Positions 256 through 21,222 of a DNA stretch of 22,240 bases are shown piece by piece. The translations under genes were made by a program, and so were the position numbers. How positions within the stretch are numbered: the stretch's first letter is position 1; each line of letters opens with the position of its first letter. The notes beneath the pieces were generated by a model. That model ran no database searches and had not been told where the DNA came from. It saw only the letters and a list, made by a program, of their open reading frames with translations. The stretch comes from Spirogloea muscicola (taxonomy: Eukaryota > Streptophyta > Zygnematophyceae > Spirogloeales > Spirogloeaceae), in NCBI GenBank assembly GCA_009602725.1, contig WELB01000103.1, forward strand, positions 122,591-144,830, written 5' to 3'.

Positions 256-1005
256 TCGCTTCTGCCAGCTGCATATCTGTCGTTCTAGCGACGACGAGTT
301 TCGGCTGTTGGCATCTCCTGACTGGAGGTTACTGCCACTCCCCTTGCCGCTGTGTTAGTCCTTAGCACTCCGGCTTCATCAGACCTTGTCCATTCCTTTG
401 GGCTGGCCTCTCGCAGCCACCAGTCAATCTGGCCGCGCTTTCTTCTTCTGGGTCGCTAGCGCAGGTGTACAGTATGAGCTTGGCCGTCTCGCTGCAGAGG
501 TCTATGGCCCGCGCGCTGCACCCGCGTGCCGGCAGAGCCCTCGCTGCCGCCTCTGGCTCTGGCCAGGGGACCCGCTTCCAGGAGCCCAGCTTCTCTGACC
601 TGAGGCTGCTTAGCAGAGGTTACCGAGTGCTTCGTAGCTGCTTTGTTTCTTTCTGTGCTTGTTTTTCTTAGCGCTTCCCCTGGCCCATTTTTCGTACTTT
701 GTTCATTCTTTTTTGGGCTGGCTTTTCCAGCCCCTATCCTCAATGGGCGAGCCCTTTCTCTTTCTTCTTTGCATCGTGCTCAGGCTAATGCTTTGCACCA
801 GAAAGCTGGGCGAGCTCTACTTGGTAGCAGAAGGGCTTCGTATCTGCCATCTAGTATCCAGGCATTGATTAGCGACCTTTATGTACTGACCTGTGTTTAC
901 TGAGCGGGTCAATCTGCTGTAGGTTATGTACGTGATGTGCTTGCCCTTGTACTTTGGCCATTTGGCCTTCGTTTGTTTCAAAAACACGTAATGTTCCTTG
1001 GTCTC
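256..1005 (+). mobile_element. Family A non-LTR retroelement 3' fragment, split by an insertion
   Basis: Positions 256-310 and 765-1005 together match the end of the family A ORF and its 3' UTR as seen at 4268-4550. The left piece carries the segment ending GACGACGAGTTTCGG. The right piece resumes at GTGCTCAGGCTAATGC and runs through the ORF end and the 3' UTR (GAGCGGGTCAATCTGC, GGCCATTTGGCCTTCG). The ORF end reads DLYVLTCVY then TGA. The 455 bp between the pieces is family B material, with a short GTTGGCA/CTTTGCA near-repeat at the junctions suggesting a target duplication. Confidence 0.75.
316..764 (+). mobile_element. Composite family B fragment nested in family A
   Basis: Three parts lie in one orientation. 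A hairpin module (about 355-445) has its core at 400-416 and the extension CACCAGTCAATCTGGCCGCG. A C-terminal family B ORF fragment (about 461-645) reads SLAVSLQRSMARALHPRAGR and then LRLLSRGY. A second hairpin tail follows (about 640-764; core GGGCTGGCTTTTCCAGCCC at 715-733, terminal block AATGGGCGAGCCC). The coding piece is out of frame with any longer ORF. Confidence 0.7.
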
Positions 1006-1009
1006 CCAC

Positions 1010-1190
1010 TTCGACCTTGGGTCTCCAATTTTATACCTCTTTTTGCATCTCCTTTTATTTATTTCACTCCAGCATCATTTTGCTTGTCTTGCAAGGCACA
1101 TCCCTTGCCACCACCATCGCCTTGTCTCCTTGCAAGGGCCATCCAAATCTATGCGCACCTGATTGGACTTAACAGACAGGGAATAGTCTG
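1010..1190. other. Unassigned segment with a diverged direct repeat
   Basis: No gene was recognised. CTTGCAAGGCACATCC (about 1088-1103) recurs as CTTGCAAGGGCCATCC (about 1129-1144), a 16-bp repeat with two mismatches. Nothing else is interpretable. Confidence 0.3.
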
Positions 1191-1194
1191 ATGG

Positions 1195-1300
1195 CGACCT
1201 CCTGTAGAAGGAAATTGCGCGCTCATAGAGAAGAAGAATGGCGCGCCCTTAGAGAAGAGGGGCTGGCCAAGCCGGCCCAAAAAGATGGACATTCCTTGAT
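1195..1300 (-). mobile_element. Hairpin tail with a tandem second terminal block
   Basis: On the minus strand the hairpin GGGCCGGCTTGGCCAGCCCC (1259-1278) is followed by TCTTCTCTAAGGGCGCGCC and then a second terminal block, TTCTCTATGAGCGCGC. This is the family B 3' tail with its end duplicated in tandem. No coding part is attached. Confidence 0.65.
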
Positions 1301-1307
1301 GGGGATG

Positions 1308-2196
1308 AGAAATTTCATGTGTTTGAAACAAGTGAAGGCCAAATGGCTAAGTACAAAGGCAAGCACATCTAGAGACCTACATAACCTACAGGAGATTGAC
1401 CCGCTCAATAACCACGGGTCAAAACATGAAGGTCGCTAACGATGCCTGAATACTAGATGTCAGATACGGAGCCCTAATGCCACCAACTAGAGCTCGCCCA
1501 GCTTTCTGGTGCAAAGCATTAGCCTGAGCACGCTGCAAACAGGCCGAAACTCGTCATCGCAAGGACGACAGAGATGCAGCTGGCAAGCCCATCTCAGCCA
1601 GAAACACATCTATACGTCGTGTGTAGCCTAAATTGGCAATATTCTGAAGGAGAGTGTGGAAGCGCGGACCCAGACAGCCAAAGATGTCGACTGCCGCTGG
1701 CAGGAGCTGATCGCATTGGGGGTAGTCGGAGTAGTGCTGCAGTTTTCTTTGTTCAGCACCGCCTACAGCGTGGCCAGCGATGTGTGTCGAAGCTGGACCT
1801 TCATACGCCTCCGTAACAACGACATCGACCAAGGCCGTGGTCCTCCACCAGGTTGCACGCCCACAATGTCAAGTGTGCGTCGATGATGACGTGCCTGGGC
1901 GTCCGTGGTGATAGGCATGATGTCGTTGACTTCCACGACCGCACGGTAGCCGGCGTTGCGCATCAAGCCCGCCAGGGCATCGCGGAGGAGGTTGTGGATG
2001 CCCACCACTTCTGGTCCAGTGGGGCATCTCAGCATGTGAGTGGCGAGCTCAGCACCCTCTGCACGGAAGCCGCACTCACACTGGCGCACCCCAATCAGGC
2101 AGTTGGTGGGAGGCCGAGGAAGAGTTGAAGCGACGTCCGAAATGCCTCATAGCTGATGCTGAAGGCGTTGGCGACGGCGTGTGAGGTGACGCCCTG
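1308..2196 (-). mobile_element. Family A non-LTR retroelement, 5'-truncated copy with a degenerate RLE ORF
   Basis: Reading leftward, the C-terminal part of the element's ORF starts near 2196. It holds a CCHC-type finger (CECGF...HMLRC, about 2085-2030) and the restriction-like endonuclease segment RRTLDIVGVQPGGGPR (about 1895-1845). A frameshift near 1800-1840 moves the reading frame, which continues as VDVVVTEAYEGPAS and VDIFGCLGPRFHTLLQNIAN. The ORF end (GY, TGA, about 1420) and the full 3' UTR down to 1310 follow. The copy is closely similar to the plus copy at 3700-4560. Several frame breaks make it inactive. The 3' end has no poly(A). Confidence 0.85.
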
Positions 2197-2205
2197 GGGA
2201 TATAG

Positions 2206-3041
2206 AGGAGCTTCTCCCTGTTTCTGTCCACCTGCCGGCACATCGCCAGGGCTGCCGTTCCACCACGCATTGCCGACGCTTTAAACTGCAGCCACCTGCT
2301 GGCCCTTGCGAAGCCGACAGGCGGTGTGAGACCCATTGCGATGACGAAGATTACCATGCGGCTGGTATCAAAGGCCGTGTGCAGCGAGCTGAAACCCCAG
2401 CTGAACAGCCACCCTATCACCCCACCAATTTGGTGCTGGCATGCCTGCGGGGCGGAGGCCCACGTCCACGGCATCCGCGCTGCTCTCGACGTGGACCTTT
2501 CAATGATGGTCCTTGGGCTGGATGTCAGTAACGCCTCTAACACAGTGGAGCGCAGAGTCATCATGGAGGAGCTGCACGACCCCTTCCCTTCCCTTCCCTT
2601 CCCTTATACCCTTTTTCCTCATGGCCTATGGCCGTCCAGAGCGGCTGCTGTGGCAAGCCGGAGAGTCGCGGAAGACGCTATGGTCATCTTCTGGCACACG
2701 CCACGGGGATCCCCTTAGCCCAATCCTGTTTGCCCTGCAACATTGCCGGGCTGTACGGCGCACCCAGAGCCAACACCCAGACCTCCTCTTCCCCTCCTAC
2801 GCGGATAATACACACATCATTGGAAATCCAGCTGAAGTCATGGCGGCTTACCCCTTGCTCGTTCGTGAACTCTGGACCTGATGGGCCTGCGGATTTGCCC
2901 GTCCAAGAGCGTGGCATGGTCCCCAAGCGGTCTCCCCGCCAACCTCCAGCTCCCCCAGGGCCGCCAGACCCCTGCCAATAGGCTGGCCATCCTCAAGGTG
3001 TACCTCGGCACACCAGCTCACGTGGCGGTGAACTTGCGGGA
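2206..3041 (+). pseudogene. Reverse transcriptase domain of family A (frameshifted)
   Basis: RT motifs occur in order. HLLALAKPTGGVRPIAM lies at about 2287-2343. Box A is GLDVSNASNTVERR, with the catalytic Asp codon at 2521. The conserved GDPLSPILFAL is at about 2705-2740. The catalytic box is YADN at 2798-2809, where active RTs have YADD. GLRICPSKSVAW and LAILKVYLGTPAH follow. The frame changes at the CCCTT repeat (2581-2605), and a stop at 2879-2881 interrupts the next segment. The stretch back to 2206 (RSFSLFLSTCRHIARAAV) is still in frame. Loss of the second catalytic Asp and the frame breaks make it a pseudogene. Confidence 0.85.
2581..2605 (+). repeat. (CCCTT)5 microsatellite inside the RT
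   Basis: Five perfect CCCTT units lie between RT box A and the next conserved block. Reading frame 1 is used before the repeat and frame 2 after it, so the repeat coincides with the frameshift. Slippage is the simplest cause. A similar CCCTT-rich stretch lies at 3067-3085, in the linker. Confidence 0.85.
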
Positions 3042-4274
3042 ATGCCTTCAACTACACCTCGCCCCCCTCCCTTCCCTTCCCCTCCTTGGGGAGACACAGC
3101 TGGCGTTGGCCATTCCCACTCGCTGCATCGGCCAACGGGCATGCTATCTGTAACGGACGATCGCCCCAATGGGCATGGTGGGCGAGCTTTACAAGAAATT
3201 CGACAGCTCCCTTCTACAGTCCCTGGCATCTCTTCTACATTCTTGATCTTCCCCTCAGCTTCATCTTCCCTCCAAGCTTCCCTTCCCACTCGCATGGGCG
3301 GCCTTGGCTGCCGGTCGTTGGAGCAGACGGCGCAAGCAGCCTTCCTGGGCTGCTGGCACCAAATCGCCTCTCTGCTCCCCATGCCCTTCCCTTGCCTCCA
3401 CGACCCTGTACGCAACGTGGAGGAAGGCTCCTTTCCCTTAAGCGGATCTGAGGAGCATCCGTCACTCAGCCATCGGCTCTTTCCCTTCTCTCTCCAACCC
3501 CTACTCACGCCATTCTCCGCCCTCGCTCAAGCTTCTGATAGAGGGGCACGATCCAGACTTATTACGGCAGTGGAAGACGAGCGCCGCAGAAGGTTGAGGA
3601 GGCTGCCAGAGATTCAGAACAATCCAAGGAGCCTCGCAGGACTTACTTCTCTAGCCACACCTGGTGCCACCGACTGGATCACCTCACACGCCGTCGCCAA
3701 CGCCTTCAGCATCAGCTCTGAGGCCTTTTGGACGTTGCTTCAACTCTACCTCGGCCTCCCACCCAACTGCCTGATTGGGGTGCGCCAGTGTGATTGCGGC
3801 TTCCGTGCAGAGGGTGCTGAGCTCGCCACTCACATGCTGAGATGCCCCACTGGACCAGAAGTGGTGGGCATTCACAACCTCCTCCGCGATGCCCTGGCGG
3901 GCTTGATGCGCGACGCCGGCTACCATGCGGTCGTGGAAGTCAACGACATCATGCCTATCATCACGGACGCCCAGGCACGTCATCATCGTCGCACACTTGA
4001 CATTGTGGGCGTGCAACCTGGTGGAGGACCACGGGCCTCGGTCGATGTTGTTGTTACGGAGGCGTACAAAGGTCCAGCATCGACACACATCGCTGGCCAC
4101 ACAGTGGGCGGTGCTGAACAAAGAAAGCTGCAGCGCTACTACGATTACCCCAATGCGATCTGCTCCTGCCAGCGGCAGTCACATCTTTGGCTGTCTGGGT
4201 CCGCGCTTCCACACTCTCCTTCAGAATATTGCCAATTTAGGCTACACACGACGTGTAGATGTGTTTCTGGCTGA
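3042..4274 (+). pseudogene. C-terminal zinc finger and restriction-like endonuclease ORF of family A
   Basis: This is an open frame of 410 codons, the longest in the window that makes biological sense. After a low-complexity Pro-rich start it contains LPTRMGGLGCRSLEQTAQA, typical of the RT-to-RLE linker. A CXCX11HX3C finger follows (C250, C252, H264, C268). The RLE core is RRTLDIVGV (D320) and VDVVVTE (D335, E340), fitting a PD-(D/E)XK nuclease. About 40 residues before its stop the frame departs from the family. The true continuation (FGCLGPRFHTLLQNIANLGY to DLYVLTRGY) is in frame 1, up to about 4458. Single-base losses around 4147 and 4177, relative to the minus copy, explain the shift. Confidence 0.85.
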
Positions 4275-4561
4275 GATGGGCTTGCCAGCTGCATATTTGT
4301 CGTTCTGGCGACGACGAGTTTCGGCCTGTTTGCAGCGTGCTCAGGCTAATGCTTTGCACCAGAAAGCTGGGCGAGCTCTAGTTGGTGGCATAAAGGCGTA
4401 TCTGACATCTAGTATTCAGGCATCGATTGGCGACCTTTATGTTTTGACCCGTGGTTATTGTGCGGGTCAATCTGCCGTAGGTTATGTAGGTCTTTGAATG
4501 TGCTTGCCTTTGTACTTGGCCATTTGGCCTTCACTTGATTCAAATACACGAAATTTTCTTC

Positions 4562-4630
4562 ATTGGGAGAGCCACTTCTTTATCGGGGCTGGACTTTCCC
4601 AGCCCCGATCCTCTATGGGCGAGCATTATT
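4562..4630 (+). mobile_element. Tandem terminal block plus hairpin tail
   Basis: The sequence directly abutting the family A 3' end begins with the terminal block ATTGGGAGAGCCACTTCTT (4562-4580). A complete hairpin module follows (GGGGCTGGACTTTCCCAGCCCC, 4585-4606) with its terminal block CTCTATGGGCGAGC (4611-4624). Two tails of different subtype are thus fused head-to-tail with no coding sequence. Confidence 0.7.
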
Positions 4631-4774: not shown

Positions 4775-5318
4775 AGTGCGCCCATAGAGAAGAGGGGCCG
4801 GCAGAGGCCAGCCCAAAAAGAATGAACAAAATCCAAAGAGCCAAAACAGGTGCCGGAAAGGATATCTAAACAGATAGACACGAGATGACGCAAAGGGAAG
4901 CTCAGTGCCCACGAGTGAGCAGCATCAAGTCCGAGTAGCTCGCAGCTGGGAAAGAGGCACCTCGCCTAGACCCAGATGCAGCAGCCATAGCGCGGCCGGC
5001 AAGCGAGTGGACTGCGTGAGCCAGAGAGCGCTGAAACGAGACCGCCAGCCGCATGCGGAACACCTGTACTAGCGAGCCGGCAGCGTTGAAGCCGGGCAGC
5101 TCCCCTGGCTGACCCGGCCGCCGCTCAGTGGCCTGCCGGGCAAGCCGCTGGAGGAAATCCAGCCAGCGGCTGCCAAAAGAAAGAAAAAAAGTGCTCGCCA
5201 AAAGCCCCGTGTACGTCAGTTGCCAGGTGCCTCGAAGCATCACCAGCAGGGTGGTCGGCGTATTTGCGCTCCTTGCCCAGGGCCGCCACAGAGAGGTCCG
5301 ATCGTCCAATTGGCACAA
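4775..5318 (-). mobile_element. Family B non-LTR retroelement 3' copy
   Basis: On the minus strand the end of the RLE-type ORF runs from about 5318 to 4902. It includes FGSRWLDFLQRLARQA, FNAAGSLVQVFRMRLAVSF and YSDLMLLTRGH. The 3' UTR at 4901-4815 (start GCACTGAGCTTCCC) follows, then a hairpin (GGGCTGGCCTCTGCCGGCCCC, 4794-4814) and the terminal block TCTTCTCTATGGGCGCAC. This copy is the clearest evidence that the hairpin is the natural 3' end of family B. Upstream sequence to about 5300 (GGCCCTGGGCAAGGAGCGCA, minus) also fits the ORF, with frameshifts. Confidence 0.8.
5172..5204 (-). repeat. 17-bp tail-only insertion with 8-bp direct repeats
   Basis: GCCAAAAG occurs at 5172-5179 and 5197-5204. 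The 17 nt between them read GAGCACTTTTTTTCTTT on the minus strand, matching the terminal block of family B tails (GGGCGAGCACTTTC). The uninterrupted counterpart at 17582-17600 reads GCGGCCAAAAGCCCC with one copy. Confidence 0.75.
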
Positions 5319-5560: not shown

Positions 5561-6242
5561 AAGTGGCACTCCCAATGGGGGCAAGGGCTGTGAAAAGCCA
5601 GCCCGAAAAGAATTGACAAAGGTTCAAAAGGGGCCAAATGACGGAGGGGCCTAAAAAAAGCGCTAAGCAGCTACGAAGGGGCCTGAAGAAGCTACGTCAG
5701 AACGGGGGACCACTCAGTACTTACGAGTGAGGAGCCTCAACTCCGACAAAGTAGCTGCCGGAAAACTATCCCCCTGCCGAAAGCCTGAGGCCGCAGCGAG
5801 AGCACGGCCAGCACGCAGATGCAAGGCGTGGGCCATGGACCGCTGAAGGGAGACTGACAATCGCATGCGGTATACCTGGGCCCACGAGCCAGCGGCGTTG
5901 AAGTCAGCCGGCTCACCGCGCCTGCGGGACACAGCGCGCCGCGCAAGCCTGGCCAGCAGGTCGAGCCACTGGGACCCGAGCGCCCCGTGCACGTCCACGG
6001 CCAGGGGTACGAACTCATCTGCAACCGGGTGGTCGGCGTCTTTGGCCGCCTTGCTGCGAGCGGCCTTCGCCGCAGCGTGGCCAGCCCGCGAAGCAGAGAG
6101 CCCCAGGTTGGAGCTGTCGACCACATCAGTGGTGACCACATCAGCAATAATGCGCGCGCCGCCGCCCGGCGTGGACGCCACCAGGTCGACGCGGCGCGTG
6201 TGGAGTCCGTCGGCCCTCTGGAGGATTGGCATGACAGACGTA
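5560..6242 (-). mobile_element. Family B copy B1: RLE C-terminus, 3' UTR and hairpin tail
   Basis: On the minus strand the ORF from 6242 to 5714 reads MPILQRADGLHTRRVDLVAS, GGGARIIADVVTTDVVD, EFVPLAVDVHGALGSQWLDL, VYRMRLSVSLQRSMAHALHL and ends ELRLLTRKY, TGA. The Asp pair in RRVDLV and IADVVTTD fits the PD-(D/E)XK core of an RLE. This frame is unbroken for about 176 codons, so the copy is younger or better preserved than the family A copies. The 3' UTR (5713-5606) is followed by the hairpin GGGCTGGCTTTTCACAGCCC (5585-5604) and the terminal block CCCCCATTGGGAGTGCCAC. A diverged + copy of this 3' end lies at 19515-19710. Confidence 0.85.
6168..6242 (+). repeat. 75-bp direct repeat, left copy
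   Basis: Begins GGCGTGGACGCC and ends GACGTA. It is the partner of 6679-6753, with 71 of 75 positions identical by eye. Both copies encode the same family B RLE segment on the minus strand and flank a 436-bp insert. Confidence 0.85.
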
Positions 6243-6678
6243 AAGGAGGGGTTTTTACCAGTAGAGGGCGGGGTAGCTGTGATTGGGCAGCCCCGTATGT
6301 AGAGATTGAACAAAGTCTGAAGGGCGCTGGTGCGCACTGCGACTTGAGTGGCCACCTTGGCGCCTGCAGCTGGCTGCTGCAAGTGGGGCCGGGGAGGCGC
6401 GCGCGAGTGGGCGGCTAGGCCTCTCGCCGGCCAGCCCCCGGCGCCGCCGCCCGCGGTGCCGACCGGCTCGTGGGACCTTGTCCAAAATTCTTCTGGGCTG
6501 GCCCCGTCCCAGCCAGTTGTCATCCTACACCAGTTCTGGGGAATGGAGTGTGTATCAAGAGATGGAGGGCCTGTGTGGCCAAGCACGAAGGCAAGCACAT
6601 CGACTAATGTACTTCTCTTGCTGCTGAGCAGGTTCTGGGCTGGCCTCCCCCAGCCACCGCCCTCTCCTGGAAGCGTCT
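6243..6678. mobile_element. 436-bp insert in family B with oppositely oriented hairpin modules at its ends
   Basis: The left end carries a minus-strand hairpin module (about 6250-6292; GGGCTGCCC...GGGTAGC equivalents, terminal block CCCTCTACTGG). The right end carries a plus-strand module (about 6635-6672; CTGGGCTGGCCTCCCCCAGCC and CCCTCTCCTGG). Another plus hairpin is at 6493-6513. A weak minus-strand family A tail lies at about 6541-6605. Next to the left hairpin a minus frame reads ALQTLFNLYIRGCP, resembling the segment just before the zinc finger in family A. The insert is probably two opposed retro-fragments, not a DNA transposon. Confidence 0.6.
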
Positions 6679-7974: not shown

Positions 7975-8400
7975 GCTCGCCCATAGAGAAGAGGGGCTGG
8001 CAAAGCCAGCCCAAAAGAGAATGGACAATGCACAAAGCCAAAGAAAGAGGAGCCAGAAAAAGGATTACACTACAAAACACTGCAAAATACATAGACGATG
8101 CAGAGGGAAGCTCAGTACCCACGAGTGAGCAACATCAGGTCTGAGTAGCTCGCTGCAGGGAAAGAGGCACTCCGCCGAGACGCAAAGGCGGCAAGCGCGG
8201 CCAGATCAAGTGGTGGCTGGGATAGGCCAGCCCAAAGGAATGGACAACAAGGTCGGAAGGAGCCGGAGTGGGAGCCAGATTCTGCTGCAAGGGCGCGCCC
8301 GGCGTGGCGGTGCAAAGCAAGCGCTTGGGAGCGCTGGAGGGACATAGACAATCGCATGCGGTAGCAGGGCACAAGACCCAGAAGGCACCGAGCCTCCTGG
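7975..8400 (-). mobile_element. Family B 3' copy with hairpin tail, interrupted by a module
   Basis: On the minus strand the ORF piece CYRMRLSMSLQRSQALALHR lies at about 8365-8300. The ORF end SASFPAASYSDLMLLTRGY is at about 8170-8112. The 3' UTR (TACTGAGCTTCCCTCTGCAT) is followed by the hairpin GGGCTGGCTTTGCCAGCCCC (7994-8012) and the terminal block TCTTCTCTATGGGCGAGCAC (7973-7992). A hairpin module at 8192-8265 splits the ORF. Confidence 0.8.
8192..8265 (-). mobile_element. Hairpin module, CCAGTCAATCTGG subtype
   Basis: Minus orientation, core TGGGCTGGCCTATCCCAGCCACC (8213-8235), then the extension CACTTGATCTGGCCGCGCTTG. It is inserted into the family B ORF just described. The same subtype is at 388-445, 17940-18008, 19315-19395, 20165-20215 (partial) and 20308-20440. 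Confidence 0.65.
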
Positions 8401-8571: not shown

Positions 8572-11500
8572 CATGGGCTCTGGCGACGACCGGGCCCCCC
8601 CACAGCACCTCGCCCAGTCGAGGGCGGGCCCGTCGTGGACGCCTGCGCCCTCCTCGCTCACCCGCGTGCTGAAGCTGCAGCTGCCCTGCCGCAACCACCC
8701 GCCGGCGCCCCGCAGGCCACAGACTCCGCCGCAGACTGCTCCGGAGGAGGCGGAGAGTGGGAGACCGCCGGCGCCGGCGACGGCGATGCTGTCGGCGGGG
8801 AGCTCGGTCAGAGTGATGAGGAGGGGCTGCGGAGCAGGCTCGCCTTGGCGGGCGTCCAGCTGGTTCCCTTCAGCACGCGGGAGCGCAGCGGAGGCGCCCT
8901 GCAAGCATATGTGCACGTCAGCGCGTACAGGATAGGCCCAGGCGACTTCGCCGTCGTTGGGACTCACGCGCGCAGCCTCAAGGTGAGTGGACTGGACCAC
9001 TCGCTGGTTTCCAATTGTGTCATGGTCCTGTGGACAGGCAGCCCTGGACCGGAAGCAGATGATGAGCATGGTGTCGGAGGCCCCGAGCAGCTGAGCGTCC
9101 CAGCTGCGACTTGGCTGCTGCTCGCCGAGCGGGCCGCCGGGCCACCCCGTTTCGCCAGCTCACAGACCTCGGCTCCTGGTTGGCTGACCTCTGCTGGCTT
9201 GGCGGGTGCAAAGCAGGACGCATTTGGGGATCCAGCCCACTTCTGCATCTGGGCGCCGTACTCCAGGGAGCCGGTTCGTGTCCAGCGATCCTCGTTGCCT
9301 CAGCAAGTTGCAGCAAGCAGCGAGTTGCATGTTAGGCAGATACGTAGGCAGCGTGGGCTGAGCACTCGCCTCATCTCCGATTGAAAGAACTGGCCGACGC
9401 CCGAGAGCGTATGGCCCCTACTTTTCTTTCTCATGGAGCGGCGCCAGGCATCTCATCAAGCAGGACCAGCAGGGCGTCCATCTTTGTGAATCGTCCAACG
9501 TGCCTCTGCAGGCAGCTCCTTGCCATGAAGTGCTACTCGAGCGAGCGAGCTGATGTGTTAAGCTACTTCTGCAGCTAGACAAAGTGTACCTGCGCGATCT
9601 TGGCGTCAGGGGAAATGCGGTCCATATGGGGCCAGGCAAGTGGCCAGCTCCTCTCACCGGTTGCTGGCTTGCCAAGTGTCATTCCTAGCTCAGGCTCAAT
9701 CTGGCCAAGCAGATGGCCGTGTGCAAGTCAGTACGCGAGGGCACATGCCGTGCCAGCCACTTGAGACCTACTGCAGCCTCTTTGTCGTCCACGTTGCACC
9801 CATTTTGTCGTCCATTGCATGACACAACCTCCAGTGCACAGGCTCGCAGTCGCCCCTCTCACTATCTTGATATGGTGCACTCAGCAGGCAATGGTATGCA
9901 AATGCCATATGAGGCGCTCATTATACATTGCAACTTCTCGGCGAATGACACTGACGCCTCGCAAGGAGGGCAGCTGTACCTCGCACTTCATGACCTCAAT
10001 GTGACCTCCCTGCACTAGCCGTCGCGGTCGCGTAGGCATGGCCATGTGAGCCGGCTTGTGAGCTGACATTTCTGCCCAGCAGATTGAGCAGAGGCAATTT
10101 GCCTGCTTGTACTTCTCATGATGCATCGAAGCTTTTGAGCCCAGCTGAACCCTTGCAGAGGACTTGCGGCGCGCGTTCACAGTGAGGCCCTGCAGTATGA
10201 GGCAAATGAATGGTCCGTAAATCCGTTTTCCGTGACACCTGTGCTTGCTTTGCTCCGCAGCTACGCGTGAAGGAGGAAGATCAAGAACTGGAGTACATGC
10301 TGGTCTATAGAGAAGAACCTTCTGATGTGTCGCAAACCCCGACATCGGCGGGCACCAGCAGGCACGCTCTGGAGCAATTGCCACCGTGCACATTGTGGTA
10401 GCAGAGGCGGGCACCTCGTTTGCTATGGGTGAGGCCTGCCTAGCAAGAGCTTTGGTCTCACCAGGTTGCTGAGCCCGTCATCATCTGTCGCTTGTGGTCG
10501 CAGAGCTCCTCCAGCCTTCAAATACTCATTCTGCGGACCTCCCATGAAAGACTTCATCTATGCCTCAAGGGTGGCGGAATGGCTTCGGTATCACGATCAC
10601 CTGATGCACAACAGCGTCCACTATGTGTTTTACCTGGCAGAGGGCAGCATGACGACAGACCTTCTGAATTTGTATCAGGCAAGTATCATGCCCTTGATGA
10701 TGCCCCACGGAGTAGGTACTGGCGTGGATGCAGGAGGTAGCACACAGTATCCATGGCCACAAGTAGCTCCATGTGGCATGTGGCATGTGGCTTCGGCTAG
10801 GCTGACTTGGTGGCATTCAAGGGTGCCAACTAGCAGATCTGAGGTCTTGGAAGTGCCCTGCGCTCGCACAGCCACGCTTTGCCTGGTCACCATTGCAGCC
10901 TGCAAACAAGTCGGTTGCTGGCACCGTGGTAAGAGGTGGCCTGTGCTGCTCCACAAGTACAGAAATATGTTGAGGATGGCCGCATGACATTGTTGGATGT
11001 GAGGGAGGAGCGCAAGTATCCAACATACAATCACGGCCAGAAAGTGTATTTGAATGACTGCATATATAGGACTAGGGAATTGTCGGAGTGGACCCTCTTT
11101 TGCGACCTCGACGAGTACCTCTACCTAGTGCCCCCCGCAACTCTTGGCAAGGGCCTCTGACCCCTCCCCCCTTCTCCATATACTGCTGACCTCACCAGGA
11201 CGGATGTACGCCGCAGCAATCCAGGCGCCTTGTGTTGCCTGACCAAGTCGAGGCAGCTTGGCGGCTGCAGACACAATCGTGGAGCAATTCAAAGACCAAA
11301 AGTACTTCAGAATTCACGACTACAGGTTTGACGTGCAGTTATGCCTACCTGAGAATGCCACCTCGCACATAGCCAATCCCATCTTGGCACAGCGCATACC
11401 CTACCGAATTACCCATACATTTTTCCGTGAGAAGTGGATGGCCAGGACAGGGGAGGTGGTGGTGGCAGGGGTACATGAGGCTGTCAAGCTTGCAGGCCGC

Positions 11501-11695
11501 TTTCGCGAGCCTGCTGCTTATATCGATGCCCATGTCAGCCCGGAAGTGCTGCACATCAAGCACTTTCGTGGCCTCATCTCCGCAAATGATACCTGTCACA
11601 CGATTGTGACAGACCTATGGACAACGGCCTGGACTGTGCCAGATGTTGACATGCTGGGATGTACTCAGCTTCCGAGCCCCATCATCAAAGTGTGA
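8572..11695 (+). CDS. Glycosyltransferase family 92 protein, GALS-like (multi-exon, 5' end uncertain)
   Basis: GT92 enzymes of plants (galactan synthases) add beta-1,4-galactose to pectic galactan in the Golgi; that specificity here is inference. Exons: 1 to 8982 (VSAYRIGPGDFAVVG); 2 from 9217 to about 9302-9319 (FCIWAPYS); 3 from about 9885 to 10000 (ALIIHCNFS); 4 10261 to about 10328-10331 (EYMLVYREEPSDV); 5 10504-10678 (FKYSFCGPPMKD, ASRVAEWLRYH); 6 10963-11146 (KYVEDGRMTLLDV, and the donor/metal motif FCDLDEYLYL); 7 11271-11695 (THTFFREKWMAR, EVLHIKHFRG), stop TGA. The order matches plant GALS proteins: SAYR...FAVMG, CxWxP, NC, YxYCG, VDEYIYL, EKLVFR. The frame is kept across introns 1, 4, 6 and 7 with the stated junctions; intron 2-3 boundaries are ambiguous. 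No in-frame ATG lies between the TGA at 8569 and 8982, and no membrane anchor is visible, so a first exon is missing, lies upstream, or was lost to repeats. Confidence 0.8.
10679..10962 (+). other. GC-AG intron in the GT92 gene
   Basis: Donor CAG|GCAAGT, acceptor GTACAG|AAATAT, phase 0. Splicing joins LLNLYQ to KYVEDGRM, as in the family. The nearest GT (10672) would drop two residues and break the frame. Confidence 0.75.
11147..11270 (+). other. GC-AG intron in the GT92 gene
   Basis: Donor CTTG|GCAAGG, acceptor GGCTGCAG|ACACAA, phase 1. Splicing yields PPATLDTIVEQFKDQKYF, which fits the plant GALS spacing after DEYxYL. Unspliced reading hits TGA at 11158-11160. No GT donor nearby gives a matching phase with an AG in this interval. 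Confidence 0.75.
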
Positions 11696-11880
11696 GGCCA
11701 TGGAGGGTAACTTTTGCATCTCAAGTCGAGCATGCTCAGTCCTGGATCTTGTAAGGAAGGCTCAAGATAGGCGGCAGATTGGATGATGAGGTCAGCTGGG
11801 TGCTTGGTGACCTCTCAAATTGGCATGACGAAGGCCCGCCTGCCAAACAGAAAGCAGTGCCACGGAGCCTTGTCAGGTAT
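11696..11880. other. Putative 3' UTR of GT92 and left NUMT flank
   Basis: No open frame of interest. A TGTAA element (11748-11752), used as a polyadenylation signal in some green algae, lies 50 bp after the stop. No AATAAA was seen. Confidence 0.3.
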
Positions 11881-12102: not shown

Positions 12103-12173
12103 GGCAAAGTAACTTAAAGGTGATGTATTGGATTGAAAATCCATAAGTAATGGTTCGATTTCGTCCTTGGCCT
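12103..12173 (+). pseudogene. trnC: Mitochondrial trnC-like tRNA with altered anticodon
   Basis: 71 nt with acceptor GGCAAAG/CTTGGCC (one mismatch), a small D arm and a T arm around GGTTCGATT. The sequence closely follows plant mitochondrial tRNA-Cys (TGTATTGGATTG-CAAATCC; GTCCTTGGCCT). The anticodon at 12135-12137 reads GAA instead of GCA, through a C-to-A change at 12136. It is a decayed copy. Confidence 0.7.
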
Positions 12174-12213
12174 AGTCATCGCGCTATGGCGTTATCTCTT
12201 GTTTTTTTCTCCT

Positions 12214-12287
12214 TGTCTAGAAGTGGATTTGAACCACTGACACAAGGAATTTCATTCCTTGGCTGTAACCAACTGAGCTATTTAAAC
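12214..12287 (-). pseudogene. trnF: Mitochondrial trnF(GAA) copy
   Basis: A full cloverleaf can be drawn on the minus strand. Acceptor GTTTAAA (12287-12281) pairs with TCTAGAC (12221-12215) with one A-C mismatch and one wobble. The D arm is GCTCAGTTGGTTACAGC. The anticodon stem AAGGA/TCCTT holds the loop ATGAAAT, giving anticodon GAA. The T stem AGTGG/CCACT holds TTCAAAT. GTGTCAGTGGTTC is typical of plant mitochondrial trnF. No CCA is encoded. Confidence 0.75.
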
Positions 12288-12329
12288 ATAAATATCAATT
12301 ACCATTCAAAAATTGCTTGCTACAAATGT

Positions 12330-13682: not shown

Positions 13683-13999
13683 TGAGCAAGAGCCTCCGCA
13701 GGCTGACTCACCACATCCCAATATCCTAGGGACTTGAGACGGTGCTCCATCACAAACCTCCACGCTCCAGGCATCGGAAGCGACCTTTATGTTTTGACCC
13801 GTGGTTTCTGAGCGGGTCAACCTACTGTAGGTTATGTAGGTCTTAAGATGTGCTTGCCTTTGTACTTGGCCATTTGGCCTTCGTTTCTTTCAGATACACG
13901 AAATTCCCACGCTGGGAAGTCCTTGCCGTCCAAGAGCAGGTGCCGAATGATCGCCTCGCTACTGCTTCTGATACCATGCTGAAGGTTGCTAACATCCAT
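13683..13999 (-). pseudogene. Ty1-copia gag N-terminus, interrupted
   Basis: On the minus strand, from an ATG at 13999, the frame reads MDVSNLQHGIRSSSEAIIRH, then LLLDGKDFPAW. After the family A insertion it resumes as RFVMEHRLKSLGYWDVV. The pattern LDGxNFxxW+F+ME..L+..G.W+VV is the hallmark of copia-type Gag N-termini. It stops at the NUMT edge near 13683. No protease, integrase or RT of this element was seen in the window. Confidence 0.7.
13760..13913 (+). mobile_element. 140-bp family A tail inserted in copia gag with 7-bp direct repeats
   Basis: The insert 13767-13906 starts CCAGGCATCGGAAGCGACC (end of the family A ORF), contains the 3' UTR and ends ATACACGAAATTC. It is bounded by CCACGCT at 13760-13766 and 13907-13913. 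Removing the insert and one repeat restores the gag reading frame. Confidence 0.85.
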
Positions 14000-14039: not shown

Positions 14040-14140
14040 AGGCATATTGCCTCTTTCCATTTTCTTTTCTCTTTTCCTTTTTGGCTTTTGGATATTGTCC
14101 ATTCGTTTTGGGCTGGCTTTGCTAGCCCCTCTTCTACCAA
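14040..14140 (+). mobile_element. Hairpin tail module
   Basis: Pyrimidine-rich lead (TTTTGGCTTTTGGATATTG), then TCCATTCGTTTTGGGCTGGCTTTGCTAGCCCCTCTTCT in two adjoining parts, with the hairpin core at 14110-14128. It matches the family B 3' UTR at 8040-7985 (minus). Confidence 0.65.
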
Positions 14141-14336: not shown

Positions 14337-14780
14337 AAGCCCAAAAAAGGTGCCGAAAAGAAAGACCTACACAGCTAGACACAAAACGACGCAAAGGGAA
14401 GCTCAGTACCCACGAGTGAGAAGTGGCTCTCCCAATGGGGGCTCACGAGTGAGCAGCAGCAAGTCCGAGTACGTCGCAGCTGGGAAATAGAGAAGAAGGG
14501 CTCGCCCATGGAGGATAGGGGCTGGCAAAAGCCAGCCCATAAAAGAATGAACGAAGTACGAGAAAGGGCCAGGGGAAGCACTAAGGTAAACAAGCACAAG
14601 AAGAAACTAAGCAGCTACGAAAGATGCACTCCGACTAGACCCAGATGCAGCAGCCATAGCGCTCGCGAGTGGACGGCGAGAGCCAGGGAGCGATGGAACC
14701 AGACCGCCAGCAGCATGCGGAATACCTGCCAAAGCGAGCAGGCCGCATTGAAGCCAGGCAGCTCCCCTGGCTGACCAGGC
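14337..14780 (-). mobile_element. Family B 3' copy with two nested insertions
   Basis: On the minus strand ORF remnants lie at about 14775-14630 (CAGGGGAGCTGCCTGGCTTC, GGTATTCCGCATGCTGC), then the ORF end CTCACTCGTGGGTACTGAGC and the 3' UTR to about 14337 (GTGTCTAGCTGTGTAGGTC). One insertion (about 14487-14630) is a complete hairpin tail: lead GTGCTTCCCCTGGCCC, core GGGCTGGCTTTTGCCAGCCCC, terminal block CCATGGGCGAGCCC. The second is the 23-bp insertion at 14421-14443. Confidence 0.75.
14411..14453 (-). repeat. 23-bp tail-only insertion with 10-bp direct repeats
   Basis: CACGAGTGAG occurs at 14411-14420 and 14444-14453. The 23 nt between them, on the minus strand, begin AGCCCCCATTGGGAGAGCC and end ACTT: the terminal block of a family B tail with no hairpin. 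Other family B copies have a single CACGAGTGAG here (for example 8120-8129). Confidence 0.85.
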
Positions 14781-15675: not shown

Positions 15676-15709
15676 AAGAAGAGAGAAGGATGGAGCAGGG
15701 AGGGAGGGA

Positions 15710-15816
<107 letters not shown>

Positions 15817-16164: not shown

Positions 16165-16455
16165 TGCATATGGACGATGACTGTGGAAAGGCAGCCCACA
16201 ACGGTATGAACTCGGTCCAAGTAAGTCGGAGTGAGAGTGTCGTTGTCGGAGTAAGAGGCTCCTCAAATACGAACAATGACATTGATAGGGTCATAGCAGA
16301 AGAAGACGAGAGTCATATCATCCCGTGCCCGCCATTATCTAGCTGGCTTCCTATAGCGAATCCTATAGCGACCTTGGACCTTCTCCATTGTGCTCCGACC
16401 TTTCACAGTTTTCGCCCCCTTTTGAAGAGCTTTTATCCTCCTTTCTTTGTCCAAC

Positions 16456-16487
16456 AAGCAAGGTCTTACTAAACAAGGTCTTACTAA
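16456..16487 (+). repeat. Tandem 15-bp repeat
   Basis: CAAGGTCTTACTAAA occurs twice in direct succession (within 16458-16487). A shorter pair, CCTATAGCGA, lies at about 16350-16372. Confidence 0.7.
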
Positions 16488-16489
16488 AG

Positions 16490-17060
16490 GAGGGCGACGG
16501 CTGTGCAAGGCCGGCCCCAGAAAGGATGGACAAGATCTACGATGCTGGAAGTGCTACAGCACACATCTATGCTGGCGGCTTCTAAGCCCTGTCCATTCAA
16601 TGGGCTAGCCATTCAGACGTCGCCTCCCTACTTCGTAAGCTTCTCTCTGAAGCTTGATACTTCTCGGGTGGTGACTGCCAATTAAGGCCGTCCTCGGAAG
16701 AGGCTCGCTCAAGAACTTGAAGCCTCTTAAGTGAACAGCTCCTCCAGTGCACGGCAATGGCTGTAAGAGGCCAGCCCAGAAGACGAAGTAAGCTATTCGT
16801 AAGGGGCGAGGGCTGTGAAAAGCTAGCCCAGAAAGCATGGACAAGAACAAGAAACAGCTCTTTCAAGAAGGGGCGAGGGCTAGGACAAGCCAGCCCACAA
16901 ACAAATGAACAAGTTCTGAAGGGGTTTTCAAAAACCAATGGCGCTCCCAATGTAATGCAGTGGCTGTGAGCCCAGCCCAAAGGGATACGGGAGCTCTTTT
17001 AAACAGTGAGCCCTTCCAAAGAGGGCGGGGGCTGTAAAAAGCCAGCCCAGGAAAAGTCAT
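16490..17060 (-). mobile_element. Array of about six hairpin tail modules
   Basis: Minus-orientation cores of the form GGGCTGGCC/T...CAGCC lie near 16499-16518, 16758-16778, 16808-16829, 16871-16896, 16960-16978 and 17022-17049. They are separated by 30-250 bp of lead and terminal-block sequence. Each has the lead CCATNCTTT on the right and a GAGC..CTTCTT-like end on the left. No coding sequence is present between them, so the array grew by tail-only insertions. Confidence 0.7.
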
Positions 17061-17124
17061 GAAGGGTCAAAAGGGCCGAAAGGCGCCAAACCGAAAGGCG
17101 CTATACAGCTATGCAGGAGACTCC

Positions 17125-17170
17125 AGCGAGTGAAGGAAGGCGCGCGGTGCGCCTGAAATGAAAGGGAGAC
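17125..17170 (+). repeat. R3 short repeat fragment
   Basis: GAAGGCGCGCGGTGCGCCTG then AAATGAAAGGGAG. Matches the first 40 bp of the copies at 7500 and 17600. Confidence 0.55.
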
Positions 17171-17179: not shown

Positions 17180-17600
17180 CCTTTAAAAGTCCTGGAAGAG
17201 GGCAATAAGCTGGCTAAGGGAGTCTCTAGTACCCACGAGTGAGCACAAATATATCCGATATGAGCCACGGAGCGCTGGAACGAGACCGCCAGCCGCATGC
17301 GGAATACCTGCGCAAGCCAGCCGGCAGCGTTGAAGCCGGAGCACCTCCCCTGGCTTCGTATCTGCCATCTAGTATTCAGGCATCGGTTAGCGACCTTGAT
17401 ATTTTGACCCGTGCTTAATGAGCAGGTCAATCTACCGTAGCTTATGTAGGTCTTAAGATGTGCTTGCCTTTGTACTTGGCCATTTGGCCTTCGTTTGTTT
17501 CAAATACACGAAATCTTTTCCCTGGCTGAGCCGGCCGCCGGTCGATGGCCTGCCGGGCAAGCCGCTGGAGGTGATCCAGCCAGCGGCCAAAAGCCCCGTG
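17180..17600 (-). mobile_element. Family B fragment split by a family A tail
   Basis: On the minus strand LQRLARQAIDRRPAQPG (about 17575-17525) continues, beyond the insertion, as FNAAGWLAQVFRMRLAVSFQ and RSVAH (about 17340-17270). It then jumps to the ORF end (CTCACTCGTGGGTACT, about 17230-17245), showing an internal deletion of about 100 bp. The right flank (CCAGCGGCCAAAAGCCCC) gives the intact version of the site disrupted at 5172-5204. Confidence 0.75.
17348..17527 (+). mobile_element. 164-bp family A tail inserted in family B with 8-bp direct repeats
   Basis: CCCTGGCT at 17348-17355 and 17520-17527 flanks an insert (17356-17519) that begins TCGTATCTGCCATCTAG, passes the ORF end and the 3' UTR, and ends ACACGAAATCTTTT. 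Removal restores continuous family B sequence (CCCCTGGCTGAGCCGGCCGC). Confidence 0.85.
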
Positions 17601-17929: not shown

Positions 17930-18245
17930 GCACTCCGGCTCCTTCAGATCTTGTCCATTCTGTTGGGCTGGCCTCTCACAGCCACCAGTCAATCTGGCCG
18001 CGCTTTCTTCTAGCTGCTTAGTTTCTGTTTGTTGCTTGTTTTTCTTAGTGCTTCCCCTACGAACCTTGTCAATACTTTTTGGGCTGGCTTCTCACAGCCC
18101 TTGCCCCCATTGGGAGAGCCACTTATTCTTCCCCTGGCCCCTTCTTGCACTTCGTTCCTTCTTTTTTGGGCTGGCCTTTTCCAGCCCCTATCCTCTTTTC
18201 TTATGGGCGAGCCATTCCTTCTATCCTCTATGGGCGAGCTCTTCT
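17930..18245 (+). mobile_element. Three hairpin tails plus extra terminal blocks in tandem
   Basis: Cores at 17965-17983 (CCAGTCAATCTGG subtype), 18081-18100 (TTGGGAGAGCCAC subtype) and 18168-18188 (TATGGGCGAGC subtype). The last is followed by two terminal blocks (TTATGGGCGAGCC at 18201-18213, CTATGGGCGAGC at 18228-18239). Different subtypes lie head-to-tail in one orientation. Confidence 0.75.
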
Positions 18246-18352: not shown

Positions 18353-18354
18353 GG

Positions 18355-18505
18355 AGGAGGAAAGAGAGAAGGGCTCGCCCACTGAGGATAGGAGCTGGAA
18401 GAAGCCAGCCCAGAAAAGGACGAGAAGGGGCCAGGGGCGGAGGAAACCCTGAAGACGCTTCCAGGAGAGGGCGGCGGCTACGAGAGGCCAGCCCAGGGAA
18501 AGTAA
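18355..18505 (-). mobile_element. Two hairpin tails, minus orientation
   Basis: First module: terminal block GGGCTCGCCCACTGAGGATA and core GGAGCTGGAAGAAGCCAGCCC (18390-18411). Second: core GGCGGCTACGAGAGGCCAGCCC (about 18472-18494). Confidence 0.65.
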
Positions 18506-18529: not shown

Positions 18530-19290
18530 GGGAGCCGCGTCGTTCGAGAGGGCCGAAGATTGGTCGTTGAGGTAGTATGTACGGCCCCACGGCCTCGGCC
18601 CGGCTGGTCAACCGCGGTCGCCCGCCGCGCGTCAGGGTCTCGCTGACGGTGCCCCGACAGCCTGTGCGCCACGTGGTAGTGTCGGCAGACGTTGACCAGC
18701 GTCCGCGCCAGATGGCGGTCAGCGTCGGACCGCCAGCTTGGCCCCCCCCAGCAGGGTGACGTGGCGGCAACGTGCCGGACGGCGACAAAGCCTTGTGGTG
18801 ACGTAGCGGGCCAAGTAGGCGCCGGGCCGGGATACGACAGAAACAGCATCCCGCCCTGCGGGCGACCACGTGGCGGAGGCGATGGGGCCCGCCGTGCACG
18901 TGAGCACGTGGCCGGTCACGCGGGGGTCGTGCGGCGGCGCTGTGCCACGTGGCAAATTTTCCGTGAGCGACGCCGGCGGCAGCGGGGGACACCGGACCTG
19001 ACCGGCCGGCCGGGGGGGGGTAGGTGAAAGTGGGGCCCTGACGTGACCGCCGGGCCAGACGCGGACGTGAATGGGGGGCCAGGGACGAGTCGCCGGTCAA
19101 ACGTAGCCCGAGGGGCGCACCGCGGGTTGCTGCAATCAGCTCCCCCTCCTCCCCAGTGCGGGGGGCCTTTTGTGTGGCCTTGCTCGGCTGCCACGTGACA
19201 ATTCGTAGTCCCCCGTTGCGCGGCTTTCCTAGCAAGCAGGGCAGCCTCCCCTGGGTAGTCACGCAGCCGGCACGCCATCGAACGTCGTGA
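18530..19290. promoter_or_regulatory. GC-rich island with a cluster of G-box/ABRE-like motifs
   Basis: CCACGTGG is exact at 18669-18676, 18866-18873 and 18945-18952. Related ACGTG cores are at 18759 (TGACGTGGC), 18897 and 18905 (GCACGTG), 19040, 19064 and 19191 (CCACGTGA). These resemble plant bZIP/bHLH sites. The long minus-strand open frame across the island (to 19262) looks like a GC-composition artefact, and I see no protein family in it. Which gene, if any, the island serves is unknown. Confidence 0.4.
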
Positions 19291-19304
19291 CATCAGCACC
19301 GAGT

Positions 19305-19400
19305 CAACGAGGCAAGCGCGGCCAGATTAACTGGTGGCTGGGAGAGGCCAGCCCAAAAGAATGGACAAGGTCTGAAGGAGTCGGAGTGCTAAGGACTGAG
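19305..19400 (-). mobile_element. Hairpin module, CCAGTCAATCTGG subtype
   Basis: GCGCGGCCAGATTAACTGG then TGGCTGGGAGAGGCCAGCCC (about 19333-19352), lead AATGGACAAGGTCTGAAGG. Close to the copies at 8192 and 20308. Confidence 0.65.
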
Positions 19401-19514
19401 TCAACAGCGTCCAGGGGGGAGGTTACCGCCAGGCGTGTCCCACTCCAGTCTTGTCAAATCCCTCTTTCCCAGGCGCGCTTTTCGGCCCATTTGGGTAGAG
19501 TTTCCCGGCTAGTC

Positions 19515-19710
19515 TGTCGGATTTGAGGCTCCTCACTCGTCAATACTGAGGTGATCTATCCTCCCCCGTTCTGAGCATCTCAGGCCCCTCCGTAGCTGCT
19601 TAGCGCTTTTTAGGCCCCTCCGTTACTTGGCCCCTTCGAACCTTTGGCAATATTTTTTGGGCTGGCTTTTCACAGCCCTTGCCCCCGTTGGGAGTGCCAC
19701 TTCTTTGGAC
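19515..19710 (+). mobile_element. Family B 3' end of the B1 subtype
   Basis: GAGGCTCCTCACTCGTCAAT then ACTGAG is the ORF end of B1. The 3' UTR (CGTAGCTGCTTAGCGCTTTT, GGCCCCTTCGAACC) follows, then the hairpin GGGCTGGCTTTTCACAGCCC (19659-19678) and the block CCCCCGTTGGGAGTGCCAC. It is collinear with 5725-5560 on the minus strand, so this is a severely 5'-truncated copy. Confidence 0.8.
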
Positions 19711-19859
19711 CTTCTCCACTCTTCTCGGGCTCGCTGTTCATATGCATTGCGCCTTTGGGAGACCCACTTTCTTTCAAAGAGGACCTGCTACTCGGAGACT
19801 AGTTGCTAAGACCTGCAGCTGCTCAACAGCACCCAGTGGCCGCTTGAGTCGCTATGTGC

Positions 19860-20215
19860 TTTTCTGGCCCCATTCCATTTTCTGGGCTGGCTAATCACAG
19901 CCATCGCCCTCTACTGGAAAAGTCTGTCTTTCTTCGGAAATCAGAATATAAAAGAGAAATATATCCAGCAGCTGCAATATATCCAGCACGAAAAATGGGC
20001 TTGCTTTTCACCCTCGCCCCCTTTTGAAGAGCCACGTTCTTCCTTCTTAAGGGCACCTTTTCCGCACCATTATTGGCTCTCTGGATTTTCTTCAATTCTG
20101 CTTGGGCTGGCTTTGCCAGGCCCTCTTCTCTATGGGCGAGCAATTTCTTCTTACATGAAGGCGAGAGCTTTGGGCTGGCCTCTCACAGCCACCAGTCAAT
20201 TTGGATGAGCTGTTC
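19860..20215 (+). mobile_element. Three further hairpin tails
   Basis: Cores at 19884-19902 (with CCCTCTACTGGAAA), 20104-20122 (GGGCTGGCTTTGCCAGGCCC, then TCTTCTCTATGGGCGAGC) and 20172-20190 (with CCACCAGTCAATTTGG). The last starts 30 bp after the terminal block of the one before. Confidence 0.65.
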
Positions 20216-20304
20216 TCTTCACAAGAGGCTGTGGCTCTGCAACACTTCCAAAAAAATCTGAACGGAGGTTGTAGGTGAAGGCCCACCTTGAAGAACAAAA
20301 AAGA

Positions 20305-20440
20305 AGAAAGCGCGGCCAGATTGACTGGTGGCTGTAAGAGGCCAGCCCAAAAGAAACGTTCGTATATTTGAAACGAACGAAAGGAATGGACAAAGGTATG
20401 GACAAGGTCCGATGGAGCCGAAGTGCTAAGCGCTAAGACA
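20305..20440 (-). mobile_element. Hairpin module carrying a micro-insertion of family A
   Basis: The core GGTGGCTGTAAGAGGCCAGCCC (20328-20349) and the lead ATGGACAAGGTCCGATGG are separated by about 45 bp (20354-20398). That piece resembles the reverse complement of the family A 3' end (TTCGTATATTTGAAACGAAC against TTCGTGTATTTGAAACAAAC). An ATGGACAA duplication is visible at the right junction. Confidence 0.55.
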
Positions 20441-20695
20441 GCAGCAAGGGACTCTCAGTAACCCCAAGTCAGTAGATGCAAGAACAAGCCGGCTCAGCCA
20501 AGACGACTGGGTGCTGTGAAGTTACTCATTAGCTACTCCTTACTTACCCAGCCAATAGCCGCGTATCGCAACACGCGACAGTACGGAAGAAAAGAAGCTC
20601 TACCAAAAGGAGGTAGCGATGTGAAGGAAGCACAGCGGCTGCTGTGCTTCCTGCTAGTATCAAAAGAAGTAAGACATCCGACTGTGGAAAGGAAA
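20441..20695. other. Unassigned segment
   Basis: No gene recognised. Short open frames on both strands lack protein signatures. GCACAGCGGCTGCTGTGC (about 20630-20647) is a near-perfect inverted repeat. Confidence 0.3.
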
Positions 20696-21222
20696 GTGGC
20701 TCTATCGAAGGGCACGAGGGCTGTGAACAGCCAGCCCGAAAGAAAACAAACAGGATCAAGCAGGGGAGTTGTTGCCCCCCCGTTAGCTTGAGGCAGCAGC
20801 CAAGGCAGGGTCAGCACACACATGCAAAACAAAGTGAGCACCTGAAACAACATGGTGTGTGTGACAAGCCTGAGACAGCGAGCATTGAGCGCTGGAATGG
20901 AATGGAAGATAGACTCTTCCAGTAGAGGGCGATGGTTGTGATTGGCCAGCCCAGAATAAAGAAGCGGAGCATTGGCTTCTCTCTGTGACTTCACTACACG
21001 CAACGCGAAGAGAGAAGGGGCTCTCTCAAATAAGAAGAAGTGGCCCTCCCAATGGGGGCAAGGGCTGTGAAAAGCCAGCCCGAAACAAAGGTCCGAAGGT
21101 GCCAAATGACGGATAACCTTTTGGGAGAGGGCTTCAAAGGGGAGGTCATGAAGCCCGTGGGGTGTCCCAGGTGGCGCTGAAGAAGAAGTGGTTCTCTTAG
21201 TGGGGGCAAGGGCTGTGAAAAA
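20696..21222 (-). mobile_element. Series of four hairpin tails, the last truncated
   Basis: Cores near 20718-20737, 20928-20952 (with CCAGTAGAGGGCGATGG), 21062-21081 (block GTGGCCCTCCCAATGGGGGC) and 21208-21222. The last one is cut off within the hairpin where a plus-strand family B fragment begins. Confidence 0.7.

Follow-up and report, generated by a model that had tools for sequence, protein, structure and literature searches.

The stretch of DNA examined here, which we call the window, covers 22,240 nucleotides (nt) of the Spirogloea muscicola genome (GCA_009602725.1, contig WELB01000103.1, positions 122,591 to 144,830 of the forward strand). It is part of a 153-Mb assembly of 471 contigs, from which other places were taken as loci numbered with an L. 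We focus on a short tail module that recurs throughout the window, in which a GGGCTGG/CCAGCCC hairpin is preceded by one of several lead sequences and followed by a terminal block. The module is supported as the 3' terminus of long interspersed nuclear elements (LINEs) of a group called family B.

Searched with a strict sense-oriented pattern, the window yields 25 stems, where 100 dinucleotide-preserving shuffles average 0.11 and never exceed 2; degenerate copies bring the number to about 30 on both strands. This agrees with the first-pass annotation, which had counted about 30 copies; the three terminal blocks it described (TATGGGCGAGC, TTGGGAGAGCCAC and CCAGTCAATCTGG) are likewise real and define subfamilies. 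Across the assembly, exact and perfect type I stems number 762, and at up to one mismatch there are 5,138 type II and 3,013 type III cores (reversed patterns, used as controls, gave 0). Twenty hand-chosen 10-kb places, 16 of them with more than 3 kb readable, hold 40 modules in 131,558 non-N bases, and modules are present in 10 of the 20. The modules and LINE remnants of the window are as follows, where ORF denotes an open reading frame.

400..438 (+): type III tail module, stem and CCAGTCAATCTGGCCGCGC block
475..633 (+): Ib LINE C-terminal coding remnant, ending ...ALAAASGSGQGTRFQEPSFSDLRLLSRGY
715..752 (+): type Ib tail module, downstream of the Ib C-terminus
1241..1278 (-): type I tail module, C.A mismatch on the sense strand, then a second, hairpin-less terminal block
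4586..4624 (+): type I tail module, extended stem
4776..4814 (-): type Ia tail module, 87 nt past the stop at 4902
4902..5318 (-): family-B (Ia) C-terminal ORF fragment, ending ...SDLMLLTRGH
5562..5604 (-): type II tail module, 109 nt past the stop at 5714
5714..6220 (-): family-B (II) C-terminal ORF, ending ...SELRLLTRKY
6495..6514 (+): degenerate tail module within a family-B ORF copy
6637..6675 (+): type IV-like tail module
7975..8012 (-): type Ia tail module, 99 nt past the stop at 8112
8195..8233 (-): type III tail module
14110..14127 (+): type Ia stem, terminal block damaged
14421..14443 (-): 23-nt insertion of a type II terminal block only, within a family-B ORF end, with 10-nt direct repeats (14411-14420 and 14444-14453)
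14500..14538 (-): type Ib tail module
16480..17090 (-): degenerate tail modules in a head-to-tail array (16517, 16777, 16829, 16896, 16978, 17048)
17965..18003 (+): type III tail module
18059..18127 (+): 69-nt type II insertion in a type Ib lead, 8-nt direct repeats CTTCCCCT (18051-18058 and 18128-18135), stem from 18081
18168..18212 (+): type I tail module, extra hairpin-less block ending at 18239
18373..18411 (-): type Ib tail module
18455..18494 (-): type IV-like tail module
19316..19354 (-): type III tail module
19659..19701 (+): type II tail module, 109 nt past the stop at 19549
19884..19925 (+): type IV tail module
20104..20141 (+): type I tail module
20172..20212 (+): type III-like tail module, head-to-tail with the module at 20104..20141
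20310..20348 (-): type III tail module
20695..20737 (-): type II-like tail module
20912..20952 (-): type IV tail module
21039..21081 (-): type II tail module

The identity of the module is clearest in six near-identical copies of about 4.3 kb (L029-L034), which are 99.7-99.95% identical in 14 of 15 pairs; the alignment of L031 with L033, at 98.5%, runs into the flanks. All six carry the module and are open from stop to stop for 1,386-1,433 codons. Homology stops a few nt past GGGCGAGCCTTC in L029, L030, L032, L033 and L034, and just before the terminal block in L031. The L029 protein contains a reverse transcriptase (RT) domain (PF00078, E 2.4e-13) with YADD, and by eye a CCHC-like knuckle and, near the N-terminus, two motifs resembling fingers can be recognized. 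A protein search with the family-B C-terminus of the window gave 150 genome places among the matches listed (17,461 first-look candidates), and 20 loci were fetched. A search with the type II C-terminus also gave 150 places among the matches listed, with some frames of about 1,400 codons when counted without a check for runs of N.

How regularly the module follows the protein was counted from 62 stop codons with the C-terminal signature across the loci, which by sequence comprise 57 of family B, 3 of a related family A and 2 of a subfamily VI. Here, and in the stem-match, lead/block pairing, VI-tail and 5'-break counts, L001 and L003 (within the window) and L004 (a duplicate of part of it) were dropped. 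A hairpin on the sense strand within 330 nt was required, since the stem is nearly palindromic and antisense copies would otherwise match, and the search was halted at the next C-terminus. Such a hairpin follows 52 of the 62 stops and 49 of the 57 of family B, at a median distance of 90 nt and at 80-110 nt in 37 of the 49. In the window and L002-L028, the part fetched neither for the tail nor for the ORF, it follows 23 of 27 family-B C-termini. Thus the expectation that family-B elements always end in the module is mostly borne out, with eight C-termini departing from it. Four modules of the window had been placed in or directly after the 3' untranslated region (UTR) of a family-B ORF. Three of these, at 4775, 5560 and 7975, do start 87, 109 and 99 nt past family-B stops on the same strand; at 14337 the ORF strand has no hairpin and keeps a lead remnant only (TTTTTTGGGC...).

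The leads of types Ia, Ib, II and III run back into the C-termini SDLMLLTRGY, SDLRLLSRGY, SELRLLTRKY and SDLHLLTRGY, respectively, of the same protein, and therefore the lead subtypes are LINE subfamilies. This link covers those four, with type IV and several small groups outside it. The 3' stem-loop is conserved among the four subfamilies but is not shared by subfamily VI and family A. Across four subfamily reference copies, hairpin identity is 0.83 against 0.56 in shuffled sequence, compared with 0.72 against 0.60 for the 30 nt before the hairpin, 0.67 against 0.56 for the terminal block, and 0.53-0.59 against 0.55-0.58 for the 3' UTR 30-120 nt upstream. The hairpin is thus the best-conserved part of an otherwise unalignable 3' UTR, which supports a role in 3'-end recognition. 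This conservation, a property of sequence, is the main evidence that the tail matters, and it suggests that the LINE protein may recognize it.

Two relatives with other tails also occur. Family A lies at 3042-4560, 1310-2411, 13766-13905 and 17352-17530 of the window; it has a similar C-terminus (...VLTRGY) and is 38% identical to family B in the C-terminal region. By eye, an inverted repeat (TTGACCCG...CGGGTCAA) can be made out around its stop codon, and its 3' end is without the GGGCTGG module. A further tail type, GGCCTCCCTTTCATTTCATGCGCNCCGCGCGCC plus CTTCTCTC, has a GCGC hairpin in place of GGGCTGG and gives 19 pattern matches across the loci, among them 17638, 17171 and 7540 of the window (all minus strand), L023:8891, L011:8455 and L037:487. 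This tail appears to end LINE subfamily VI, which has the related C-terminus SLSDMHVLTRGY (L023:8689).

Individual insertions were recognized by comparing filled with empty sites. Ten filled sites were inspected (window 14421 being added from separate extent data), and the clearest are quoted here, all sizes excluding the repeats. L002 3148 has a 60-nt insertion with the 11-nt direct repeat TTCAAAGCAAT; L002 also holds an insertion of about 64 nt with the direct repeat CATTGA, and the 69-nt window insertion at 18059-18127 has its 8-nt repeats. L006 has gained 277 nt with an 11-nt direct repeat, or 272 with one of 16, and L026 carries both a 377-nt insertion with a 14-nt direct repeat and a 197-nt type Ib copy with the repeat TCTGGA. 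Insertions of about 58-66 nt at L023 8621 and L044 593 have direct repeats of just 0-3 nt. Some blocks stand without a recognizable hairpin. Tallied over all loci, including L004 and also L049-L068, which were fetched for their stems, this holds for 12 of the 62 blocks of type I, 10 of the 28 of type II and 2 of the 16 of type III, although in a few the hairpin is damaged rather than absent, and a lone short match could be coincidental.

The 5' ends of these copies are not fixed, with measured 5' extents from 14 nt to more than 350 nt. The hazard of a 5' break per 10 nt was obtained in two samples, both leaving out L049-L068 and scores below 14, and the second also leaving out primary LINE matches above 350 nt. 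In 50 copies from the window and hand-chosen places it is 0.04-0.05 over the first 45 nt, rises to 0.12-0.14 between 45 and 95 nt, and is 0.06-0.07 from there to 260 nt; in 46 copies lying in the flanks of other loci it is 0.05-0.07, then 0.17-0.19, then 0.12 dropping to 0.03 by 260 nt. Both samples peak 45-95 nt from the block end. The hallmarks of a LINE are therefore present, namely an RT domain, direct repeats and frequent 5' truncation, and no long terminal repeats were seen in the pairwise alignments of L029-L034, in which they were not the object of a dedicated search.

With regard to structure, 72 distinct copies located through their flanks rather than their stem form the inner pairs in 93-99% of cases and the two outer pairs in 74-78%, types II and III having a mismatch at one outer position. 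Folding of the type I tails exceeds that of shuffles (z -3.79 and -4.05), since the block (ATGGGCGA, GGGCGAG) is able to form a duplex of -5 to -16 kcal/mol with the lead (TTGTCCAT, or CTCGTCC and GTTCAT). Over nine groups, matched leads and blocks reach -8.37 kcal/mol against -7.65 when swapped, and 2.4% of permutations are as low, a result driven by type I. This second helix, weak or absent in types II and III, could possibly be a feature of type I, not a general one.

Taken together, these observations lead us to read the module as the 3' end of an autonomous and very abundant LINE superfamily with young copies, and the short modules as LINEs truncated at the 5' end by early RT stops, a reading to which we give a probability of roughly 0.77. 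The superfamily has a single ORF with an RT domain and is possibly of the restriction-like-endonuclease (RLE) type. On this reading its RNA ends in the hairpin, the terminal block and a pyrimidine tail (about CTTTCTTCT). By analogy with established LINE biology, the LINE protein would recognize the hairpin tail, and target-primed reverse transcription would begin at the pyrimidine tail. The RT would often release early, leaving stubs of about 20-150 nt, mostly 45-95 nt, that would resemble SINEs (short interspersed nuclear elements) but be 5'-truncated LINEs. New copies would often land by older ones in the same orientation and so give rise to head-to-tail arrays. One mechanism would then account for many small repeats in the window and thousands genome-wide.

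Several results weigh against this interpretation. Eight of the 57 family-B C-termini are without a sense hairpin within 330 nt. The one at L033:326 is split by the 4.3-kb L033 insertion itself, and at L006:489 another element begins about 90 nt on; window 7222 keeps the terminal block alone and window 14403 a lead remnant alone, with an antisense stem also nearby; at L034:5097, L045:451 and L046:300 the nearby stem is antisense only. The last, L006:1983 on the plus strand (C-terminus LSDLGLLTRSY), has no module of any kind within 330 nt and is unexplained. Two of the 49 hairpins that were found, at 120 and 192 nt, are probably part of an adjacent element. The hairpin is not universal in the superfamily, since the related ORFs of subfamily VI and family A are followed by different 3' ends. 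Folding of type II and III tails is not better than shuffles (z -0.84 and -0.73), and the 45-95 nt peak could be partly mimicked by unsampled subfamilies whose leads would seem truncated.

Nor do the stems covary. The 72 flank-found copies contain 2 compensatory changes against a shuffle mean of 1.29, with 295 of 1000 shuffles reaching 2, and at least one of the two (L023:8666) is due to badly placed arms. Among 17 type I rows, a set that also bears on the second helix, one pair is changed on both sides, a count reached by 133 of 500 shuffles, and RNAalifold on 42 rows, hand-picked from 209 stem matches of which many are not modules, retains four stem pairs with none changed on both sides. All three tests lie at background, and we reject the idea that compensatory changes support the stem. 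The first-pass annotation had seen arms that differ in a paired way, which does not hold: the copy at 1259, read on its RNA-sense (minus) strand, is GGGCCGGC-TTG-GCCAGCCC with a C.A mismatch, and the longer stem at 4585 is a single copy. Missing covariation had been named in that annotation as a refuting outcome, and on this point the result goes against it; even so, dead copies need not covary, and the stem arms are instead kept in sequence. Of the proposal that the module is the RNA end recognized by the RT, what stands is that it is the 3' terminus of family-B elements and that its conservation between subfamilies fits recognition; covariation of the stem is the part that finds no support.

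The arrays might be thought to have another origin. Among neighbouring modules no more than 130 nt apart, 26 of 30 pairs share orientation (15 of 15 in the window and hand-chosen places, 11 of 15 in other loci), for which the binomial chance is about 3e-5 if the pairs are assumed to be independent. This would fit arrays formed in one event, by the RT jumping between RNA templates rather than by repeated insertion. We regard that as doubtful: the 18059 copy, the only case closely examined, sits between its own 8-nt repeats inside the lead of another copy and is a nested insertion, so that repeated insertion near older tails explains that case. Window 16355-17159 is 89.6% identical to L002 1-774; some arrays have been copied as blocks, and array pairs are therefore not all independent.

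The small size of the modules invites other explanations as well. Most have no ORF and many are 60-90 nt long, and tail-sharing pairs of SINEs and LINEs are described from green algae in the part of the literature consulted (PMC3747384); the modules had accordingly been called SINE-like and could be true SINEs, that is, independently transcribed small RNAs that borrowed a LINE 3' tail and moved in trans. However, the Ia, Ib, II and III leads match the 3' UTR or coding sequence of LINE subfamilies and are cut at variable points, with extents from 14 nt to more than 350 nt, and target-site duplications are present, which argues that the modules are not SINEs. No tRNA stands beside a module either: the two that Rfam and ARAGORN report for the window are both in an AT-rich stretch at a distance from modules, and the one tRNA-Lys in 14 other loci (L011:2490) is likewise remote from any module; for other kinds of head, Rfam was applied to the window only. 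We consider a SINE origin quite improbable. Only slightly better are the prospects of a discrete, processed 3'-UTR RNA of 60-90 nt, cut from LINE mRNA and reused by the LINE machinery, with RNA processing rather than RT stops setting the length peak. The break hazard, highest at 45-95 nt in two samples, and five insertions of about 58-70 nt backed by an empty site or direct repeats speak for it, but the breaks are spread across tens of nt, and products of 14-33 nt and longer ones occur within the same families. Miniature inverted-repeat transposable elements (MITEs), non-autonomous DNA transposons with the inverted repeat as their end, would also be short and abundant. Here the inverted repeat is confined to the neighbourhood of one end, the length of the direct repeats varies (about 3-16 nt), and copies have a common 3' end but different 5' ends, with the same tail ending an RT-coding element. 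Terminal inverted repeats and duplications of fixed length were not found, the 3'-anchored nested series contradicts them, and we discount this origin almost entirely.

If the modules are 5'-truncated LINEs, the 8,151 type II and III places found at up to one mismatch make an extensive natural collection in which the start and stop points of a LINE RT could be mapped with respect to a structured 3' tail. More speculatively, and with more doubt than belief on our side, they could be thousands of ultra-short insertions whose 5' ends record RT stops, with a peak just after the hairpin has been copied; either the hairpin-bound protein would drop the template there, or a tail RNA of 60-90 nt would itself be the mobile unit, a headless, tail-only retroposon. 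These unusually short insertions are the point worth following in an otherwise known kind of element.

The remainder of the window is more varied. Between 11900 and 13750 it is AT-rich, its GC content being about 0.35-0.40 where the sequence to each side has about 0.5-0.55. Two tRNA-Phe(GAA)-like genes lie there, one on the plus strand at 12103-12173 and one on the minus strand at 12213-12288, and this stretch looks like organelle-derived DNA in the nucleus. Positions 148-2263 are 99.7% identical over 2.1 kb to L004 925-3044 (contig C73) in opposite orientation, which is either a recent segmental duplication or an allelic contig. A (GA)n microsatellite of about 115 bp occupies 15700-15814. On the plus strand, 8600-11700 contains host-gene-like ORFs, apparently of a multi-exon gene; the two that were tested gave no Pfam match.

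Among known systems, Chlamydomonas provides one comparison: in the part of the source available, its SINEX / RandI (Dualen) pairs involve short elements that share LINE tails, with 3' repeats such as (CTTT)n (PMC3747384). The modules are likewise short elements with LINE tails, but SINEX elements are listed there as SINEs, some of them tRNA-derived, whereas a separate head was not found on the modules. In protein architecture, family B is like R2, NeSL, Utopia and their kin, having a single ORF with a central RT, a CCHC-like knuckle, a C-terminal D...D motif and, by eye, finger-like motifs at the N-terminus. Utopia is described, in the portion seen, as having N-terminal fingers, RT, a C-terminal finger and RLE (PMC4640811). 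A candidate endonuclease motif, RRADLV...ITDVV, was seen by eye only; no Pfam, NCBIfam or PDB support was obtained for an RLE domain, and a single-sequence model of the family A domain (mean predicted local distance difference test score, pLDDT, of 38) was too poor to use. The knuckle is CX1CX11-12HX3C in families A and B, unlike the CX2-3CX7-8HX4C spacing given for RLE LINEs in the consulted part of the published account (PMC5678591). Unlike RLE LINEs that use one site, family B is dispersed in its insertion, and the solved structures are unmatched.

The tail itself has its closest parallels among stringent-type LINEs. UnaL2 is such a LINE and has a partner SINE. For zebrafish ZfL2-1 and ZfL2-2, the source as far as seen reports that the protein binds its cognate stem-loop (PMC4176376). 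Those elements are of the L2 clade, and the family-B stem and block differ from theirs; for the family-B protein, recognition is inferred. Like ZfL2-1, ZfL2-2 and UnaL2, however, family B has a stem-loop near the 3' end of its RNA, followed by a short tail and conserved within the family.

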